Virus record (IMG/VR): IMGVR_UViG_3300043774_001230
Location: 1 to 42,504 of that record
From: a virus
Strand: one strand, 5' to 3'
DNA length: 42,504 nt
A program made the translations under genes and the position numbers. Under the pieces are notes generated by a model, which had not been told where the DNA came from, made no database searches, and saw only the letters and a program-made list of their open reading frames with translations. This document shows positions 3,858-14,483 of the stretch, piece by piece. Numbering within the stretch: position 1 is the stretch's first letter; each line of letters opens with the position of its first letter.

Positions 3858-6095
3858 ATGAAATTACTATTATCACTAGTGTTGGGTCTTATCATCTCAG
3901 CACAGGCATTTGCACAAGATCTTTTTGCAAATGCTGAACGTCAGCTCATCGTTGTTCCGGTAAAGGGACAGGAAAGTACCACACAATCTTTCTTTGAGCT
4001 TAACCGCTTAAAAATTGTAAAGGAATACTCAGCTTTAGGCTGGTATCTAGTCGAAGTAGCAGCAGATCTTCAAATCTCTGATATTGAATTAGAGTTGACT
4101 CGTAAGAGTTTTATTGAAAAAGTGTATCGTGATGAGGTTATGGATTACGAACATGACTACATTCCAAACGATACTGAATTTTCCCAATGTTGGCATCTTT
4201 CCCAATCTACTGATCGTGATATAGATGCACCCGAAGCATGGGATGCTCTGCCTCAAAATAATCCATGGGTTTCAGTCGCGATGTTTGACGGAGGCTTAGA
4301 CCTAACTCACCCTGACTTGGCTGGGAACATAGACAGTCCATATAATGCAGTAAATGGTTCAAGCTCGATACCTTATGCAAATGCATATGATAATCATGGA
4401 ACTGCATGTTCAGGCACAATTGCAGCAGTTACTAACAATGGACTTGGAGTTAGTAGTGTCGGCAATAACTTCGTGAAGGTTATGCCAATTAACATAATGT
4501 CTGCTGTATATGCAGGTGGTTCCTTTTCAACCACATCTTCTATACAAATCGCGGCAGTTAATGCAGCTATGTCTAATCCTAATTGCGTTGCCATTGCCAT
4601 GTCATATGGAGGAAGCAGCTATTCTGCTGCATTGGACGCTGCCTTCCAGTCAGCCAGAACAAATGGAAGAGGCGGTAAGGGAATGATGGTGTTTGCATCT
4701 TCTGGGAACGGATACTCTGGCACAGCTGCGCAATATCCTGCAAATTATTCAGCAGTATGGGGAGTAGGTGCAACTACGTCGTTGGACTTTAGATCATCCT
4801 TCTCAAATTATGGCCAAATCTGTGATATTTCTGCGCCCGGCAGTTCTATAAGAACGACTGACCGTGTAGGAGTTGACGGATATGGGATTGAAAACTACAG
4901 GAGCGTAAGCGGAACTTCATTCTCATGTCCAATAACAGCAGCTGCCTCCGCAATTATCGCATATAAAAATTGGGAATTGACAGACGATGAAATACTTCAA
5001 ATACTTTCCATGTCATGCGATAAAGTTGGCGGATATGTTTACTCAAATAATGCAGCATGGCCATATGGAACCAGGAGCAATGAACTGGGTTATGGTAGAA
5101 TAAATCTACACTCGGCTGTGTTGATGACTCCTGGTCCAGGTACTCCTCCACCTCCACCGCCTGCTCCAAAACATAATTTTACAGTTAGTGGATTGGCTCT
5201 TTCTCCTGCCATGTTGAACATAGGTGACACGCTAGCTATTTCATTTAATGCAGTAACTTCACAACCTACTCTGGAAGAAGTTAGCGTTCTTGTGCAAACT
5301 AGATACTCGACTAATACGATATGGGGAGACTCGGATGACACCATACTTTCTACCGATACTGTAGAGTTAGGTGCAAATTTGGCAAGTTCACCAGTTTCTA
5401 TGCAACGTACAGTAAGCGGTCCACAGGGAACAAAATATGTGCTAGTTAAAATAAACTATGATTTAGGATACTCTGACGATATCCAATCTGATAATGTTGC
5501 CCTTTCACAATTCATAGTAAATGATCCGCTATTTGTAGGAACCGACGTTAGCGTAGAATTAGCTATGCCAACTTCAAATCCTTTAACGACTTCCTCTCAA
5601 ATAGTTAACGTACGATGGAGAATAACTAATCAAGGAACCACTCCGATCACTAGCCTTTCATATTATAGAAAGTGGCTGACTTGTACGTCAGCGTTTGGAT
5701 GCTCAGTCACTGTAAATTGGTCAGGTAATCTTTTACCCGGACAGTCTACTTTTTTGCCTGGACCAAACAGTTATATTAGTTTAAATCTTTGCGGAAGTAC
5801 TAACAACTGTGCCGTTCCAGTTGGCTCGACAAATACATATCAACTAAAAATTATGACAGTAAATGGTTTCACGGATGATGGAAATACTTCAAATAATACT
5901 GTTGATTTTATTGTAAATAGAATTGCAACAAATGAAATTCTAAATAATGAAGTACTTGAGACTCCATCTTATATTTTCTATACGGTGACTGGCGTAAAAT
6001 TAAACATCGATAATTTCGCTGATCTACCCAGTGGTATGTATATCGTCAAAGAAGTTTATTCTGATCGCTTTGAAGTCTATAAAATATACAAGTAA
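3858..6095 (+). CDS. secreted subtilisin-like (S8) serine protease with T9SS-type C-terminus
   Basis: 745 residues. Residues 1-20 are a signal peptide (MKLLLSLVLGLIISAQAFAQ). The S8 catalytic triad is complete: D144 in AMFDGG, H180 in DNHGTAC, S354 in SGTSFSCP, with oxyanion N284 in SSGNG. A proline-rich linker (about 425-435) leads to beta-sandwich regions resembling CARDB-type adhesion domains. The last 55 residues (YTVTG..., LPSGMYIVKE..., ending KIYK) match the look of a type A sorting domain for the type IX secretion system. I infer export to the cell surface or medium of the host. A promoter-like octamer lies upstream and a strong terminator follows, so it is probably its own transcription unit. 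Confidence 0.85.
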   Translation: MKLLLSLVLGLIISAQAFAQDLFANAERQLIVVPVKGQESTTQSFFELNRLKIVKEYSALGWYLVEVAADLQISDIELELTRKSFIEKVYRDEVMDYEHDYIPNDTEFSQCWHLSQSTDRDIDAPEAWDALPQNNPWVSVAMFDGGLDLTHPDLAGNIDSPYNAVNGSSSIPYANAYDNHGTACSGTIAAVTNNGLGVSSVGNNFVKVMPINIMSAVYAGGSFSTTSSIQIAAVNAAMSNPNCVAIAMSYGGSSYSAALDAAFQSARTNGRGGKGMMVFASSGNGYSGTAAQYPANYSAVWGVGATTSLDFRSSFSNYGQICDISAPGSSIRTTDRVGVDGYGIENYRSVSGTSFSCPITAAASAIIAYKNWELTDDEILQILSMSCDKVGGYVYSNNAAWPYGTRSNELGYGRINLHSAVLMTPGPGTPPPPPPAPKHNFTVSGLALSPAMLNIGDTLAISFNAVTSQPTLEEVSVLVQTRYSTNTIWGDSDDTILSTDTVELGANLASSPVSMQRTVSGPQGTKYVLVKINYDLGYSDDIQSDNVALSQFIVNDPLFVGTDVSVELAMPTSNPLTTSSQIVNVRWRITNQGTTPITSLSYYRKWLTCTSAFGCSVTVNWSGNLLPGQSTFLPGPNSYISLNLCGSTNNCAVPVGSTNTYQLKIMTVNGFTDDGNTSNNTVDFIVNRIATNEILNNEVLETPSYIFYTVTGVKLNIDNFADLPSGMYIVKEVYSDRFEVYKIYK

Positions 6096-6114: not shown

Positions 6115-6143
6115 AAAGGCCGGAAAACTCCGGCCTTTCTTTT
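6115..6143 (+). terminator. rho-independent terminator after the protease
   Basis: AAAGGCCGGA-AAAC-TCCGGCCTTT makes a perfect 10-bp stem with a 4-base loop, followed by CTTTTG. It lies 20 bases after the protease stop codon. Confidence 0.9.
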
Positions 6144-6383: not shown

Positions 6384-8117
6384 ATGTCATTTATCAATTG
6401 GGGACATGAAACTCCTGAACAGAAGGAAATGAGAAGAAGATTTGAGGAGCAGGAAGCCATCCGTCAAATGATGGCTAGAAAAATGTTCGAAGCTCAAAAA
6501 ATTAGTGAGCAATCAGCTTCTTCAATTTCAGGTGCAGGGCCGGGGAGTTTCGGAGTAACTGTTCAAGGAAGTATTATAACTGGAGCCGTTGTAAAGATAG
6601 GTTGGGAACAAAATACTTCGTATGTAAATAGCGAAGGCAATACAATAGTATTAGATGAGTCTCAGTTGGGTACAGAGTACGCAACCACTGATTCTACTGG
6701 CGTAGCAAACTTTACTAAGTTTAATCCTCAATGGGTGTTGTATGACTATTCTACTGGGAATCTGATTAAGCGATACGCTCCAATATACGCAGTTGGTGGA
6801 GGCGCTGATTTAGGATACACGCCTGCTCCAATGAGCTCAAATGTTTCAGTAAATCACGTAAATCAAATAACGACAATACTGTCATCTGCTCCAAACTTAA
6901 TAGCAGACACATCATTTAAAGATTATTCTGAGTGGGAAAGCACTCTTAATATTTTTAGTGAATTGTTAGAATATGAGTTCAGCGAAGAAGATTCTGACCG
7001 AATAAAAAGAGACGGATATGTTCCGACCGATGCATACCAATCATTAATAACTCCTATACGGAAGGCAGAGTATTTATTAGAGTCAGCTGGCGTTGAGAAT
7101 GATACGATACTGGACAGTGATATTGAGTTTGCTGGAACAAGCAGAACAGCATTAGCTCTATCTCTTACACTAGGTCAAGTTGACTTGAATGAATACTTTG
7201 CGTTACGTAAAGCAGGAGAAGTTGAAGCAAACACCATAAAACAGTTAGTCTCTCAAAATTTACCTACTTCTAGTAGATTGAGCATTCTTCTAGTTGATTA
7301 CACAATAGGTTCAACTGATTTCATAGCAGATGTTGTTGAAAAGTTATATGATGATACTTCTGATGTTGCAGTATTCGATACTCTTTTTGAAACGTATTCA
7401 GCTGATGTTTATCCAGGTGATGGTGGCGGAGTCAAGCCTCCAGCAGACAACATTGTATCAATAATTGAAGCTGATCCATACACTGGATATTTTAAGTTTA
7501 AGGTTACTGGTGATTCAATAATCGGAAGTACCGTAAAGCTCTCTTCAACTAATGATGGGTGGACACCGGCGATAACACTAGTTCTTTCGGACTCAGGAAA
7601 TAATACATATGACTTCACAGTTTCACCATGGTCGGAGACACCAGATGACACATATGGAGAGCAGACATTTCGCATAGAAGCTGATCTTACTACTAATAGA
7701 CTACAGAATTCACAAGACGTTATTTATGTAGTTGGACCCGACGACACTAGCGCATTCCAATCAGTGTTAGACGGATCCGTACTTCCTGGAACAACAGTAC
7801 ATCCTAAACCAAAGACTGGCCAGTTAAGAGTGTTCGACGACCAGGACAGGCAATTATTTGTGGCTGACGCGAATCTACCAGATAAAATATTTAATATTAA
7901 CTATTGGACAGCGTCGTATGACTGGTTTGGAAACGGTGAAGAGAGTGTCTACATATATTATAATGGAGCCAACTGGGTTATCGATAATGACGGAACTCCT
8001 AAGGAAATAATAGCAGTCGGTCCAAAAGATATTGGAAAGCCTACTGGAGTATTTGCGAATGCTAATTCTGGTCAATACTCCGAAGTGTCTAAATATTTCT
8101 TAGTAACTGAATTTTAA
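6384..8117 (+). CDS. INWG-tagged fibre or virion surface protein 1
   Basis: 577 residues. Residues 1-38 (MSFINWGHETPEQKEMRRRF...) are a charged helical tag shared with the proteins at 8134 and 9435. A small-residue linker (about 44-58: SASSISGAGPGS) follows, then a long beta-rich body. The body looks modular: a first beta domain (60-150), a mainly helical part (155-350) and Ig-like stretches (360-460). I infer a phage appendage protein with a conserved attachment end and a variable outer part. There is no signal peptide. The leader is AT-rich (AAATAAAATAAACAC) without a Shine-Dalgarno sequence. Confidence 0.6.
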   Translation: MSFINWGHETPEQKEMRRRFEEQEAIRQMMARKMFEAQKISEQSASSISGAGPGSFGVTVQGSIITGAVVKIGWEQNTSYVNSEGNTIVLDESQLGTEYATTDSTGVANFTKFNPQWVLYDYSTGNLIKRYAPIYAVGGGADLGYTPAPMSSNVSVNHVNQITTILSSAPNLIADTSFKDYSEWESTLNIFSELLEYEFSEEDSDRIKRDGYVPTDAYQSLITPIRKAEYLLESAGVENDTILDSDIEFAGTSRTALALSLTLGQVDLNEYFALRKAGEVEANTIKQLVSQNLPTSSRLSILLVDYTIGSTDFIADVVEKLYDDTSDVAVFDTLFETYSADVYPGDGGGVKPPADNIVSIIEADPYTGYFKFKVTGDSIIGSTVKLSSTNDGWTPAITLVLSDSGNNTYDFTVSPWSETPDDTYGEQTFRIEADLTTNRLQNSQDVIYVVGPDDTSAFQSVLDGSVLPGTTVHPKPKTGQLRVFDDQDRQLFVADANLPDKIFNINYWTASYDWFGNGEESVYIYYNGANWVIDNDGTPKEIIAVGPKDIGKPTGVFANANSGQYSEVSKYFLVTEF

Positions 8118-8133
8118 AAAATAAACAAGTAAT

Positions 8134-8724
8134 ATGCCATTTATCAATTGGGGAGATGAGACTCCTGAACAAAAGGAAATTCGTAAAAAGTTGGAAGAGC
8201 ATGATTCTCATCAGCTAATGTTAAGAAAAGTATTTGAAGCAAGGTCTGGAGTTTCTAGCGCTTCTGCAAGTGGAGCAGGTTCAGGTGGACCAGCTACACC
8301 TTCATTTACCATAACGCCTACCTCATTCACAGGAGTATCTCCTTGGGACACAATAACTCCAGTAGAGCAAGGCGACACTTACGGATTTGATGTAGCTGAA
8401 TCCGAGAATCTTATCATGGCATACGAAGGAACTGGTGTTACCCAGGAGCTTGAAGATAGCATAATGGCAATTCACCCAAGTAGCGGAAGTACTGGATATG
8501 TCTACAATGTTGTTTGGGCTGAGGGTAGCGCAGTAAGCAGCGGACTAGCTAAATTCGCATATTACTCAAATTTGAATAAATTTAGAGTTTTACCAATCGA
8601 TCCATCTGACCCAGATTGGATGCTAAATGACGATACTGCCGGAACTCCATTAGGTGGAACCTTCTTGTTTCCTGCTAAATTTACCTTGTATACTCCAGTA
8701 ATCGATAAGAACTCTTGGTGTTAA
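8134..8724 (+). CDS. INWG-tagged fibre protein 2 (short)
   Basis: 196 residues with the shared N-terminal tag (MPFINWGDETPEQKEIRKK), a Ser/Ala/Gly linker (SSASASGAGSGG, about 47-58) and a single beta-rich domain. The part with DTYGFDVAESENLIMAYEG resembles GETFGFETANIENTCPQLV in the 9435 protein, and both proteins end in Trp-Cys. It therefore looks like a short paralogue of the 9435 protein. Probably a virion attachment or decoration protein; the receptor is unknown. Confidence 0.6.
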   Translation: MPFINWGDETPEQKEIRKKLEEHDSHQLMLRKVFEARSGVSSASASGAGSGGPATPSFTITPTSFTGVSPWDTITPVEQGDTYGFDVAESENLIMAYEGTGVTQELEDSIMAIHPSSGSTGYVYNVVWAEGSAVSSGLAKFAYYSNLNKFRVLPIDPSDPDWMLNDDTAGTPLGGTFLFPAKFTLYTPVIDKNSWC

Positions 8725-8731
8725 TCAAAGT

Positions 8732-9403
8732 ATGATAATACACAGACCGCATCACACTAGAGGAAATCCTAGAGCAAGTTGGATAAATTCATATAGAACA
8801 TTCAGCTTTCCAGGGTATTATGACCCTGCCTACATGAATTTTGGTCATCTTCAGACCATTAACGATGATCGAGTTGAACCAAATGGTCATGTTCCATGGC
8901 ACGAACATAACAACATGGAAATATTTGGATACGTAGTTAAAGGGAAGTGCAGACATACTGATAGTCATGGAAACAATATGGATATTCCAGCAGGCGCAGT
9001 TCAACGAATGAGCGCTGGAAAAAGCATATGGCACACTGAAGGAAACTCAACTGATGAACAAAATAGATACTTACAACTGTGGATTCAGCCAAATGTCACC
9101 GAAACTGAATCTGAGTATGCATGGTACCAATTTACAAGGGAAGATAAGTTAAATCGTTTTTGCAATATTACTGAAAAACTTCCCATCAAGCAGGACGCTA
9201 GACTTCTTGCTGGAATCTTTACTCAAGATTTTACTTTTGAATTAGACTCTTCGCGTAGATATTACTTGTATGTTGTGCTAGGTGAAGCAACAGTAAATGG
9301 ACTTTCCCTGATTGAGGGAGATGGTCTTAGTTATACTGAGGAGAGCAAGATAGAGATCGTAACGAGCTCAGAAGCAGAGATTATTCTATTTGATCTAGTT
9401 TAG
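8732..9403 (+). CDS. pirin-family bicupin
   Basis: 223 residues, the usual length for bacterial pirins such as E. coli YhhW. The N-terminal cupin carries the metal ligands H57, H59, H101 and E103 (HVPWHEHNNMEIFGYVVKG and IWHTEG). The typical pirin opening with FSFPGYYDP and NFGHLQTINDD is present. Family members bind iron or another divalent metal, and some oxidise quercetin. It lies 7 bases after one fibre gene and 31 before another, in the same direction. Its role in a phage is unclear: a metabolic gene, or a cupin recruited as a structural or modifying factor. It ends with TAG. Confidence 0.87.
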   Translation: MIIHRPHHTRGNPRASWINSYRTFSFPGYYDPAYMNFGHLQTINDDRVEPNGHVPWHEHNNMEIFGYVVKGKCRHTDSHGNNMDIPAGAVQRMSAGKSIWHTEGNSTDEQNRYLQLWIQPNVTETESEYAWYQFTREDKLNRFCNITEKLPIKQDARLLAGIFTQDFTFELDSSRRYYLYVVLGEATVNGLSLIEGDGLSYTEESKIEIVTSSEAEIILFDLV

Positions 9404-9434: not shown

Positions 9435-11489
9435 ATGTCATTTATTAACTGGGGACATGAGACTCCTGAACAGAAGGAGATTAGAAAGCGTATCGAAGAA
9501 GATATGATGAATCAGCTAATCTCTAAGAAGATCTTTGAAGCTCGAGGAGCTACTAGCGCATCAGCTGCAGCCGGAGTAGGTTCAGGAAAACCCAAAAATC
9601 CTAAATCGATTGTTGCATTTGCTCCAGTAATTTTTCATGCTGGCTTTCTTCAAGAAAACGGCCATGTTGGAATAACAGTAGCTAAAACAACAGATACTTC
9701 GAATTTCGCATTTAGTGAAATTCTTGATTTGGGAGAAGAAACAGTCGACACTGACTATCTATACTTTAGACTCTTGCATAATGGAGGAACAATACTAATT
9801 GGAGGAAGATATAGCGATTATTATAACTGGGCTGCGTTCGTTGATGCTGGAGGAAATTTACTTGAATTTATTCCATGGAAGGATAATCTCAGCACATTCA
9901 GCTCAGACGGAAAAGCAGTAGGTCTTTCTTTTCAAGTTAGAGAAACTGTCACCAAATTCTATTGGTGGATGGGAGAAGAGGTATTTAGCAGATCTATTGA
10001 AAATTCAATACAGGACGTGAGTACTGGAGAGTTTAACTGGGATACTTCATCCGACGGTACTCTTAATGTCAGCGTATATGACGGTTCTCAAACGAGAGTA
10101 TTTCTAGCCAGACCTAATGGAAATCTAATAGACATTACTGATCTTCTCGAAGATGCAGGCAACTATCATCATAGCAGTAGAAATCATCCAACTTCTAACT
10201 GTATACCCTTATTCTTTGAAGACGAGAATGGCTATTTTTACAAACTTCGAGTAATTCAACTGGACGGAACGTTTGCTGATTACTCTTTAACTGAAATCTC
10301 TGACGCAGATGGCCTAAATTCTTTCTCATATGGTACATCTAAATTTGGTTTTATGCTAACTAATGGTTCTAGTGAGAGCGTTATTTACGCATACGATAAT
10401 CTTGCAAGAACGCTTGCCGTTTCTAACGTAATTGATAGATCTGTTTATCCATTTTGGGATAGCTATTATTCTCGATTAGATCCAACGGAGAATTATTTCA
10501 ATTCATTAAATGGATTTGAAAATTTAATGTTTCTTTTCTACTCGAATAGCACATACGATGGAAAAATGGATAGGTACACTGCTTTTACGACAATCACTTT
10601 ATTTGGAGGAGAAACTGAATTCGTTGAGTGGAGTCCTTCTTTAGCTGAAGGCGAAACATTTGGATTTGAAACTGCCAATATTGAGAACACGTGTCCTCAG
10701 TTAGTAATAAATGCATCTGAAAGTACGACTTCAGTAGACTTATTAACCCTTAGAAAGGATGCTGCTCCAGTATATGAAGACATCATGGCGTACGCCGATT
10801 ATGCAGGGATTAATCTTATGGTGTGTGGTGATGTTACAATACTTGTGTTGAATACGGGTAGCTATTTAGTTGTAAATGGAGAGACTGGCTCAACTGAGCT
10901 TGCGGTAAATGGAATAATTCCAGCTCAATATGACGTAAATTGGAATACTTTTTGGTTATCGGATATTGATAACGGAACTCTACACTTTTATTGTCCTACT
11001 GGAGGAGACAGCGTTGCTGGAACAGTTACTAAAGTTATACATGATTCGTATTTTTGGAATAACAATTCTTCTTCAGCCCAATGGAAAGACATAAATGGTC
11101 ACACTGCAGGTGTTACTTATTTTGAATTTGACGATAACACTGCAAGACTACTTAGTCCTGCTGGAATGTCAGAAGCTTTTGAATACTCAATTGGATACGT
11201 CAGACTATACGTATCTGCAAATATGGTAATGCATATTTGGCAAAATACGAATTGGTTTATTGATGTGTATGATATTTATGGAGCACGCTTGAATTCAATT
11301 GATACTGGATATCCGATTGAAGATGTTGTCTCTTATCGATTAGTATCTGACCGTTTCTTTATGGTCTCTGGTGACGCAACCTCTTACTTGACAGTGACGC
11401 CAGATGGAACTCCATACTATTTAAGCGACGAGAACTTTGTGAGAGACTACTCAATGCCTAACGATTATACATTCTATAACTGGTGCTAA
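9435..11489 (+). CDS. INWG-tagged fibre protein 3, propeller-like body
   Basis: 684 residues. The N-terminal tag (MSFINWGHETPEQKEIRKR) and linker (ATSASAAAGVGSG, about 40-53) match those at 6384 and 8134. The body consists of many short beta stretches with aromatic residues and turn motifs (WWMGEEVF, DTSSDGTL, YDGSQTRVF), as in beta-propeller or beta-helix receptor-binding proteins. The C-terminus ends YNWC, comparable with NSWC in the 8134 protein. Likely the main host-contact fibre of the set. TAAATAAATA lies 20-30 bases upstream of the start. Confidence 0.6.
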   Translation: MSFINWGHETPEQKEIRKRIEEDMMNQLISKKIFEARGATSASAAAGVGSGKPKNPKSIVAFAPVIFHAGFLQENGHVGITVAKTTDTSNFAFSEILDLGEETVDTDYLYFRLLHNGGTILIGGRYSDYYNWAAFVDAGGNLLEFIPWKDNLSTFSSDGKAVGLSFQVRETVTKFYWWMGEEVFSRSIENSIQDVSTGEFNWDTSSDGTLNVSVYDGSQTRVFLARPNGNLIDITDLLEDAGNYHHSSRNHPTSNCIPLFFEDENGYFYKLRVIQLDGTFADYSLTEISDADGLNSFSYGTSKFGFMLTNGSSESVIYAYDNLARTLAVSNVIDRSVYPFWDSYYSRLDPTENYFNSLNGFENLMFLFYSNSTYDGKMDRYTAFTTITLFGGETEFVEWSPSLAEGETFGFETANIENTCPQLVINASESTTSVDLLTLRKDAAPVYEDIMAYADYAGINLMVCGDVTILVLNTGSYLVVNGETGSTELAVNGIIPAQYDVNWNTFWLSDIDNGTLHFYCPTGGDSVAGTVTKVIHDSYFWNNNSSSAQWKDINGHTAGVTYFEFDDNTARLLSPAGMSEAFEYSIGYVRLYVSANMVMHIWQNTNWFIDVYDIYGARLNSIDTGYPIEDVVSYRLVSDRFFMVSGDATSYLTVTPDGTPYYLSDENFVRDYSMPNDYTFYNWC

Positions 11490-12079: not shown

Positions 12080-12958
12080 TTAGAATATATTGAATTGCAT
12101 TAGGAAGTCCTTACTTACTGTATAGTCGCTGTGGCTTTCAACATCAATATCTGAGTAACTATTAGTTGAGTACATCTTAGTAAAGTGTCTACTCAATTCC
12201 AAGAAGCTATTACTAAATATTCCATGTGTCACAATTGCATATACTTTTGCTGAAGGGTGTGCTTGCTTGATTACCTTTGAGGCTTCAATAAAAGTTCTGC
12301 CTCCATCACAGATGTCGTCAACGATAACGAATGCGTGGTTATCAGAATACTTTTCCAACTCCGGCACAACAGTTTCAGTTATCTTACCAGTCGCAATATC
12401 CCTGTGCTTAGATGCTGTGATCAAGTTGCTAATTTTGAAATGCTCAGCTACCTTGTAAATCTTCTTTAGCGCACCAGCGTCTGGCGATACTATGACGATT
12501 CGATCACGAGCATCATTTCGGTTATCAATATCTGTAAGAGCAAACTTGACTAAGTTGATATTATCTATCAATCGATAGTTTTCTAGGCAGGCTTCCAGCA
12601 CATCCGAATGAGGGTCCATCACAGTAACCGAATGGTACTTTTGAGAATTAACAATAGGACAGATTACTTCCTTCAAGTAGTTTGCTTCCCAATCATTAAA
12701 TCGACGATCTGACCTAGCGCCCAAGAAGTAGGGAACATACAGAGAAATTTTGGAGTAACCTATATTTCTTAAAGCAGCCGTTGCGCAAATAACTAATTCA
12801 AGATCCCTAAATGTTTTGAGTCTACTTACTATCTGAACCTCAACATCCAAGTATCCCCAAGTTGTGTTTAAGGTGATGCTTTGTTGGCCGTCAGGAAACC
12901 TATTGATCTTATACTTAATATCTGATTTTTCAGGATATTCTAAATTTAATTGACTCAT
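12080..12958 (-). CDS. prs: ribose-phosphate pyrophosphokinase
   Basis: 292 residues, close to family length. Visible family features are FPDGQ near the N-terminus, PYFLGARSDR, DPHSD, the VSPDAGALKK segment, KHRD, and the PRPP-binding loop VIVDDICDGGRTF. The enzyme makes PRPP from ribose 5-phosphate and ATP. It is encoded directly after Nampt, 4 bases apart, so the operon supplies both PRPP and the enzyme that uses it. In the published phage NAD+ reconstitution pathway 1 (NARP1) the same pair rebuilds NAD+ from ADP-ribose-derived PRPP and nicotinamide. Phage versions of Prs there act on ADP-ribose; I cannot tell the substrate from sequence alone. Confidence 0.92.
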   Translation of the reverse strand: MSQLNLEYPEKSDIKYKINRFPDGQQSITLNTTWGYLDVEVQIVSRLKTFRDLELVICATAALRNIGYSKISLYVPYFLGARSDRRFNDWEANYLKEVICPIVNSQKYHSVTVMDPHSDVLEACLENYRLIDNINLVKFALTDIDNRNDARDRIVIVSPDAGALKKIYKVAEHFKISNLITASKHRDIATGKITETVVPELEKYSDNHAFVIVDDICDGGRTFIEASKVIKQAHPSAKVYAIVTHGIFSNSFLELSRHFTKMYSTNSYSDIDVESHSDYTVSKDFLMQFNIF

Positions 12959-12962
12959 GTAA

Positions 12963-14483
12963 TTATCTTAATTTTTTTCGGATATCTTCTAATGATGTAA
13001 CGTTATATTGCTGGCCGTCTTTATAGATAAGTTGAAGTACGCCAGTGTCTTCTGTATTCCAAGATACTTTATCGTATAACTTAATTTCACCATCTAACTC
13101 CTCAACACACAACAGACCAGTTGCTGATTTCTTTGTTCCATCATCAGTGATCGGGTCTTTAAAAATCTCACGACCTTCAATTGCAAACACTGGGATTCCT
13201 GATTCTACTTGGTGTTTAACTTCTACGTAAGTGGCTTTCATTGCAAACCCAAATGTATCACGAGTATTGTATTGGTAAGTGAATGAACCGATACCTAACA
13301 CTACGTTTGTTGATGCGAATCCTTTTGCTTCTAAACGTCTGCAAATCTCATCTGCTCTGTCAATTGTGATTGAGTCACCGTAAATAGCTCCAATATGTGA
13401 GTCAAGAACTTTGTATCCTTGTTCGTTTACTGTTCCTCCAAATACATCCCAAAGTAATTCGATAACTCCTTTTTCAGATGGATTTGCTTTACTTAATGTT
13501 CCATCAGCTTTTTCCGTTTCGTATTCTTCTTTATTATCAAAACGAATAGAACCACATAAAATATCTACTGGGTCACCTGAGTCAGGGCGAATAACTAACT
13601 TACCATCACGAGCCATAATTTCTTCTTTCAAAGTAACCACATGTTCGGTACAAACTTTCCAAAGATCCCATGTATCAGATACTACTGAAAGGATTCCTTT
13701 CGGATATGTCTCTAACAATCTGCGGAACGTTTCAACCTCGTCTTCCTTACCGCCTGCGCACATCACCGAATGCTCTGTAGCTGGAACTGAACCTGCAACA
13801 AACTCGCTAGCTCCATAGAACTTTCTAGCACCATGAATAGCTGGTAGAGAATCGGAACCTAGAAAGGAAGTTAGGTGACCTAAGCCTGAACTAACGACTG
13901 CCTCGACTGAGTCCATGCCTCGCATTGAAAAGTCATGCCCTTGCCAATCCACAAACCATGCTCTTTCTTTATCTGTCTTTTCCATCCAACATGTCAATAC
14001 CTTTCTGTACTGATGGGCGATAGTAGCTGACGTCATTGGTTTCCACAGCAAGTTGGAAAGAATTGTTTCAAGATAATTTGTGATCCAATAGAAGTCAGGA
14101 TGTGTGTTGTAAATAGTCAACACTGGAACCTTAATTGGTGCCTTAGTACCTTCCGGCAATGCTTTAACTGCAATTGGAAGATAGCCTAAATCATGCAACG
14201 CCTCAAAGTGGCTAACATCATAATCTGTACCTAGATATGCTGAAAGTTCTCTTTTCATTTCTCCGCAAACCAGATCCTTAGGTCGATCAAAAAAGTCTCT
14301 TTGAAACATTTCGTCCAATTGCATCATAACCATTTGAGGTCCGAATACTACAACTGCATCACATCCCTTAGGAGCGTACTTGTTTGAACGTGGTGTGAAG
14401 TTAGAATACACTAAAGTCGTGCCTTTAGGATACTGTTGGTGATGGCCAGTCTTGTAGCCGTCTGTTAATAGTAGAGGATTCAT
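12963..14483 (-). CDS. nampt: nicotinamide phosphoribosyltransferase
   Basis: 506 residues, matching the roughly 490-residue family. Characteristic segments are DGYKTGHHQQYPKG at the start, HGARKF near 218, SVPATEHSV with the catalytic His at 238, D270, VIRPDSGDP with R299 and D301, and the glycine-rich GIGSFTYQ stretch. The enzyme joins nicotinamide to PRPP to give NMN, the first step of NAD+ salvage. It is first of the tightly packed pair with prs. A likely role is refilling NAD+ after host defence NADases act, or supporting phage metabolism. The active-site residues I can see are intact. Confidence 0.95.
   Translation of the reverse strand: MNPLLLTDGYKTGHHQQYPKGTTLVYSNFTPRSNKYAPKGCDAVVVFGPQMVMMQLDEMFQRDFFDRPKDLVCGEMKRELSAYLGTDYDVSHFEALHDLGYLPIAVKALPEGTKAPIKVPVLTIYNTHPDFYWITNYLETILSNLLWKPMTSATIAHQYRKVLTCWMEKTDKERAWFVDWQGHDFSMRGMDSVEAVVSSGLGHLTSFLGSDSLPAIHGARKFYGASEFVAGSVPATEHSVMCAGGKEDEVETFRRLLETYPKGILSVVSDTWDLWKVCTEHVVTLKEEIMARDGKLVIRPDSGDPVDILCGSIRFDNKEEYETEKADGTLSKANPSEKGVIELLWDVFGGTVNEQGYKVLDSHIGAIYGDSITIDRADEICRRLEAKGFASTNVVLGIGSFTYQYNTRDTFGFAMKATYVEVKHQVESGIPVFAIEGREIFKDPITDDGTKKSATGLLCVEELDGEIKLYDKVSWNTEDTGVLQLIYKDGQQYNVTSLEDIRKKLR

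Follow-up and report, generated by a model that had tools for sequence, protein, structure and literature searches.

Phage-encoded cargo of the type IX secretion system (T9SS) is already known. Cryophage, described in 2020, carries genes with T9SS type A sorting domains that were interpreted as hijacking host secretion (PMC7468147), and one crAss-BACON ORF also has a T9SS sorting domain (PMC6949934). Riemerella SspA and Tannerella mirolase (KLIKK proteases) are subtilases delivered by the T9SS too, but they are encoded by bacteria, and the C-terminal domains (CTDs) of KLIKK proteases have little sequence in common with the classical type (PMC5445135). In Flavobacterium columnare, phage-exposed isolates often carry gld or spr mutations that give resistance to the ancestral phage (PMC9233685), so that surface features tied to the T9SS are relevant to phages of this species. 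Here we describe an S8 protease gene at 3858..6095 (+) of the 42.5-kb virus record IMGVR_UViG_3300043774_001230, the whole 42,504 nt of which constitute the window analysed. We consider it likely that the gene encodes a pre-pro-subtilase made for export, by Sec and then probably by the host T9SS, to the cell surface or the medium. Our literature search, conducted outside subscription papers and preprints, showed no phage type B signals and no phage proteases of this kind in the papers that it listed.

The gene starts with ATG and encodes 745 amino acids arranged as a pre-pro-subtilase. Residues 1-19 (3858..3914, +) read as a Sec signal peptide, MKLLLSLVLGLIISAQAFA, which ends in AFA directly before Q20. 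Both K2 and Q20 are invariant in the alignment of all eight phage homologues, and the same signal peptide-Gln pattern recurs in the further N-termini listed for the family. According to the Bacteroidetes Q-rule, Gln directly follows the signal peptidase I cleavage site (PMC5837995), and the window protease, read by eye, is a predicted Bacteroidota Sec/SPI substrate by this rule, in agreement with the cleavable-type signal peptide noted in the first-pass annotation. The following propeptide (residues 20-100; 3915..4157, +) was delimited from the AlphaFold model as strand-helix-strand-strand-helix-strand, with pLDDT mostly 75-87 over residues 31-90. It has no Pfam match, and its topology alone suggests that it may be I9-like. 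This first full-length model had a mean pLDDT of 54 and a poor catalytic domain, and only its propeptide and CARDB parts were used.

The S8 catalytic domain (residues 101-425; 4158..5132, +) was assigned from a Pfam match and conserved catalytic residues, PF00082 (Peptidase_S8) covering residues 138-413 with an E-value of 3.1e-31 and 109.2 bits against a cut-off of 21.8. The triad named in the first-pass annotation is present, with D144 in FDGG (4287-4289, +), H180 in NHGT (4395-4397, +) and S354 in GTSFSCP (4917-4919, +); to these we add the oxyanion residue N284 in SSGN (4707-4709, +), and all four are unchanged across the eight aligned phage homologues. By sequence, the product is a member of the peptidase S8 (subtilase) family with predicted proteolytic activity. 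PDB sequence matches of the domain include thermitase, subtilisins and mirolase (8ehe), while a search of the phage collection with the window protease gave distant S8 matches only.

Downstream of the catalytic domain, the protein continues with a proline-rich linker read from the sequence (residues 426-436; 5133..5165, +; GTPPPPPPAP), in which P431-P435 are invariant in the eight phage homologues. Two CARDB-like beta-sandwiches follow. The first (residues 437-557; 5166..5528, +) was assigned by its fold match to CARDB structure 3idu, its best alignment (Z 11.8, 3.1 A over 109 residues, model residues 434-557). The second (residues 560-689; 5535..5924, +), delimited by the model and a fold search, has pLDDT mostly 70-92 and matches many Ig-like structures at Z 8-9, including CARDB 3idu at Z 8.4. 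Neither the window nor any of the three phage homologues scanned has a Pfam match to PF07705 (CARDB); the cellular homologue L009 matches this family at 35 bits. Linker and beta-sandwich regions had both been noted before, and the earlier reading of ORF, domains and motifs holds up overall. A variable linker (residues 690-703; 5925..5966, +), recognised by its low identity to homologues, leads to the C-terminal tail, and a probable intrinsic terminator, read from the sequence as a GGCCGG / CCGGCC stem followed by TTTCTTTT, lies at 6116..6143 (+).

The tail (42 residues, 704-745; 5967..6092, +; LPSGMYIVKEVYSDRFEVYKIYK) was defined as CTD-like by profile comparisons, alignment and the model. It carries a motif-B Gly (G712), a motif D (PSGMYIV, residues 724-730) and the end K742-I-Y-K745. 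The first-pass annotation had proposed searching the window's own C-terminus against TIGR04183 and PF18962; taken literally, this check is negative, as the HMM searches gave no match to either family. All six phage homologues in the seven-member tail alignment (6/6) do match TIGR04183 (best E 4.9e-5), over only the C-terminal part of the profile and ending at position 71 of 72; the best homologue scores 20.7 bits, below the cut-off of 23, which is reached only with neighbours in the frame. Profile-profile comparison of the phage tails with 14 flavobacterial CTDs (hhalign) returned a probability of 93.7 and an E-value of 2e-7. Against a profile of 14 CTD sequences the window tail scored 8.7 bits, a value exceeded by 2 of 1000 shuffled versions of that tail; single-sequence scoring was therefore judged too weak alone, and ranking among the C-termini of 515 ORFs, taken from the window together with 10 related loci, was used. 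The type A profile for this ranking combined type A CTDs of cellular proteins with complete ones from phages and contained no protease tail. It placed the window tail 8th (E 0.023), ahead of all other C-termini of the window, and the first nine places went to two complete type A cargo proteins and seven phage protease tails. The pattern P.G.Y[IVLMA] occurs in the last 30 residues of 9 of the 515 C-termini, each belonging either to this protease family or to complete type A cargo, and in 62 of 103,000 shuffled C-termini.

In alignment A5, which joins phage protease tails and true CTDs, G712, L723, G726 and Y728 are invariant and K742 is nearly so, while motif A (LxPNP) and the first strands are absent from the window and from every phage protease tail aligned. 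The lysines at the end are spaced KxxK (K742-I-Y-K745), compared with KxxxK in motif E, and the tail is modelled with three longer strands (pLDDT about 83-91), compared with the seven-strand Ig-like sandwich that serves as the type A criterion. Fold searches of both models listed no T9SS CTD, but the lists were filled by the CARDB region and say nothing about the tail. Given the partial family matches, the shared CTD columns and the absence of motif A, we regard the window tail, as judged from its sequence, as a type A signal relative that is truncated rather than as a canonical member. The type A sorting-domain C-terminus of the first-pass annotation is supported in part, through the homologues, the profile-profile comparison and the ranking, and falls short in the missing window match and motif A; the absence of the N-terminal part with LxPNP had been overlooked. 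The predicted T9SS link is supported by the protease family rather than by the window sequence alone.

Two forms of the tail can be distinguished, PSG[MI]Y[IL]...K..K in the window and in L001-L006, L008, L093 and L116, and a EKGLNVIHIHYSDGTVEIKKI-like form in many others. Tails of this second phage group have drifted further, and they could have lost their function. A well-folded whole CTD is important for RgpB secretion (PMC11285876). We weighed a Sec-exported periplasmic or envelope protease whose tail, the remnant of a type A CTD in decay, is no longer read by the T9SS. Such a protease would have its site of action in the periplasm or on the outer membrane, where it could, for instance late in infection, weaken the envelope or clear periplasmic proteins. 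The missing sorting-domain match of the window, the loss of motif A in all phage tails and the further drift of the second group speak for this reading, which we nevertheless regard as unlikely, its proposed role included. Those residues that vary least among CTDs are retained in the tail, which also shows higher conservation than the preceding linker (43-50% identity to homologues, compared with 29-43% for the linker and 62-82% for S8), and nearby phage genes in relatives carry complete T9SS signals. As a side observation, the protease tails of L002, L003 and L004 show a synonymous divergence of about 0.12 in the last 45 codons versus 0.5-0.6 over the whole gene, at few sites.

We then considered the genome that carries the gene. 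The window encodes a T4-type portal, whose nearest matches in the phage collection are huge uncultured phages and Prevotella Lak phages, and a Shine-Dalgarno-like site precedes 1 of 35 window genes checked. Scarce Shine-Dalgarno sites are expected of Bacteroidota translation. The window is, on these sequence features, probably part of a large virus of Bacteroidota, the predicted host group. T4-type late promoters (TATAAATA) number 3 in the window versus 4.7 expected, a count below expectation that gives no sign of late expression. Besides, several other elements were seen. Four tRNA-like units of 87 to 137 nt at 3-900 have a common acceptor and T-arm and differing middles; Rfam scores all four as tRNA (4/4), ARAGORN only the first. 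A match to the freshwater-1 RNA family RF02979 lies at 1006-1067 (72.1 bits, gathering score 72). A phage pirin/cupin gene (PF02678, E 1.9e-25) occupies 8732-9403, PRPP-synthetase-like and nicotinamide phosphoribosyltransferase genes, a NAD-salvage pair found in many phages, adjoin at 12080-14483, and a related record (G005) has a tandem pair of portal-like frames at 147511-150686.

Searching with the protein found 8 viral loci with the protease, and searching with an alignment found 38 viral (IMG/VR) loci, in two of which (L110 and L117) the protease frame ends early through a frameshift or an assembly error. The S8-domain tree unites 17 phage rows in one clade (support 100/99), which adjoins Flavobacteriales and Saprospiraceae proteins, the nearest cellular relatives being Bacteroidota. 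Among cellular proteins, a chromosomal Flavobacteriales protease (L009) combines S8, CARDB and a complete CTD in the same layout as the window protease; its CTD exceeds the cut-offs (TIGR04183 32.2 bits, PF18962 41.5 bits), and its neighbours are purL-, dtd- and recG-like as read from their sequences. That the closest cellular relatives are Bacteroidota could also mean a host gene, or a chimeric contig in which bacterial sequence was wrongly joined to phage. We hold this to be extremely improbable, as the 38 viral loci with the protease form one clade apart from cellular genes, several records hold a portal related to that of the window (G005, G006 and G031, 34-44% identity), and the window, L003, L004 and L008 share a metallophosphatase gene in the vicinity of the protease. 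Tree and gene layout fit a single acquisition from Bacteroidota, after which the signal would have become shorter, a direction that we infer from sequence comparison.

The first-pass annotation had also suggested that the gene may have been acquired from a host and kept for virion use. Acquisition agrees with the tree and with L009, while virion use is less likely, given that the signal peptide and the Q-rule residue are kept throughout the protease family. A virion-associated protease, used at entry or against matrix, with export features inherited from a host ancestor, would suit the portal-like gene found within roughly 10 kb of the protease in several second-group records, as well as the best phage family of the window protease, PHROG 3677 'protease'. 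It would likewise suit the downstream genes beginning at 6384, 8134 and 9435, which could be structural: their three products (6384-8117, 8134-8724 and 9435-11489) have the common N-terminus M[SP]FINWG[HD]ETPEQKE and no family matches, and are perhaps parts docking on one structure. A signal peptide with Q20 kept across the family would nonetheless be unexpected in a protein assembled in the cytoplasm, and no virion-attachment domain was found in the protease, so we give this reading little credence.

Export by the T9SS, the reading that we prefer, is set in a wider context by other genes of the related phages. Complete type A signals were found in other genes of G002-G006, G009, G022, G031 and G032, and in L002, L003, L004 and L006 a gene near the protease encodes a complete type A CTD over the cut-off; the type A cargo protein of L003 had no match in the phage collection. 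Type B signals are present in 11 records, in 10 of them over the cut-off. Altogether, at least one other gene with a type A or type B T9SS signal is present in 16 of the 32 related phage records, although some of these records are near-copies and the figure does not represent 16 independent cases. The window itself, a fragment of a genome, holds no T9SS-signal gene besides the protease. With further proteins carrying complete T9SS signals in the relatives, these viruses probably use the host to place enzymes outside the cell.

Four loci (L145, L146, L141, which is L003 5521-5862, and L147) encode proteins of about 111-113 aa with little beyond a signal peptide and a type B signal. Type B matches in eight flavobacterial genomes are nearly all in frames of at least several hundred residues, and the short type B frames there are mostly fragments, with one frame of 114 aa. 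The tiny phage proteins could serve as decoys: by occupying the export route, they would keep T9SS-dependent adhesins, which some phages require for infection, away from the surface. As a tentative joint reading, to which we attach a rather low probability, large Bacteroidota phages would devote several genes to the host T9SS, the set comprising proteases, long passenger proteins whose type A signals are complete, type B-signal proteins and tiny type B proteins, decoys and a surface-remodelling protease among them.

For the protease, we propose the following course. Host Sec and signal peptidase I would very probably deliver it to the periplasm, cutting before Q20. The propeptide would, as in other subtilases, fold the protease and keep it inactive until removed. 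In the central step, the host T9SS would recognise the tail, which keeps the motif B Gly, motif D and a Lys-containing end and has lost motif A, and the protease would reach the cell surface or the medium. There, we speculate, it might cut host surface or matrix proteins, so that progeny leave or further phages cannot adsorb; removal of surface features, release and matrix breakdown could each be its task, none favoured over the others. If this is true, viruses routinely use the main Bacteroidota protein-export machine to place enzymes outside the infected cell, and that cell could alter its own surface and surroundings before death. Since the phage family, though diverged, has kept only the C-terminal part of the type A domain, it also offers a natural test of the minimal T9SS signal.

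Compared with the systems described so far, the protease differs in its cargo, its signal and its distribution. Cryophage cargo comprises an endoglucanase, a GH39 hydrolase and a PA14 protein, whose genes were described as variable (PMC7468147). The S8 protease described here, in contrast, has a truncated tail and makes up a single conserved clade in many large phages, and some of the same phage records hold type B signals. The crAss-BACON ORF is a phage ORF as well, but has BACON repeats and no protease. The chromosomal flavobacterial protease L009 shows the same order of subtilase, CARDB-like domains and C-terminal sorting region, and its CTD is complete and over the cut-off, whereas the phage proteases have only the C-terminal part.
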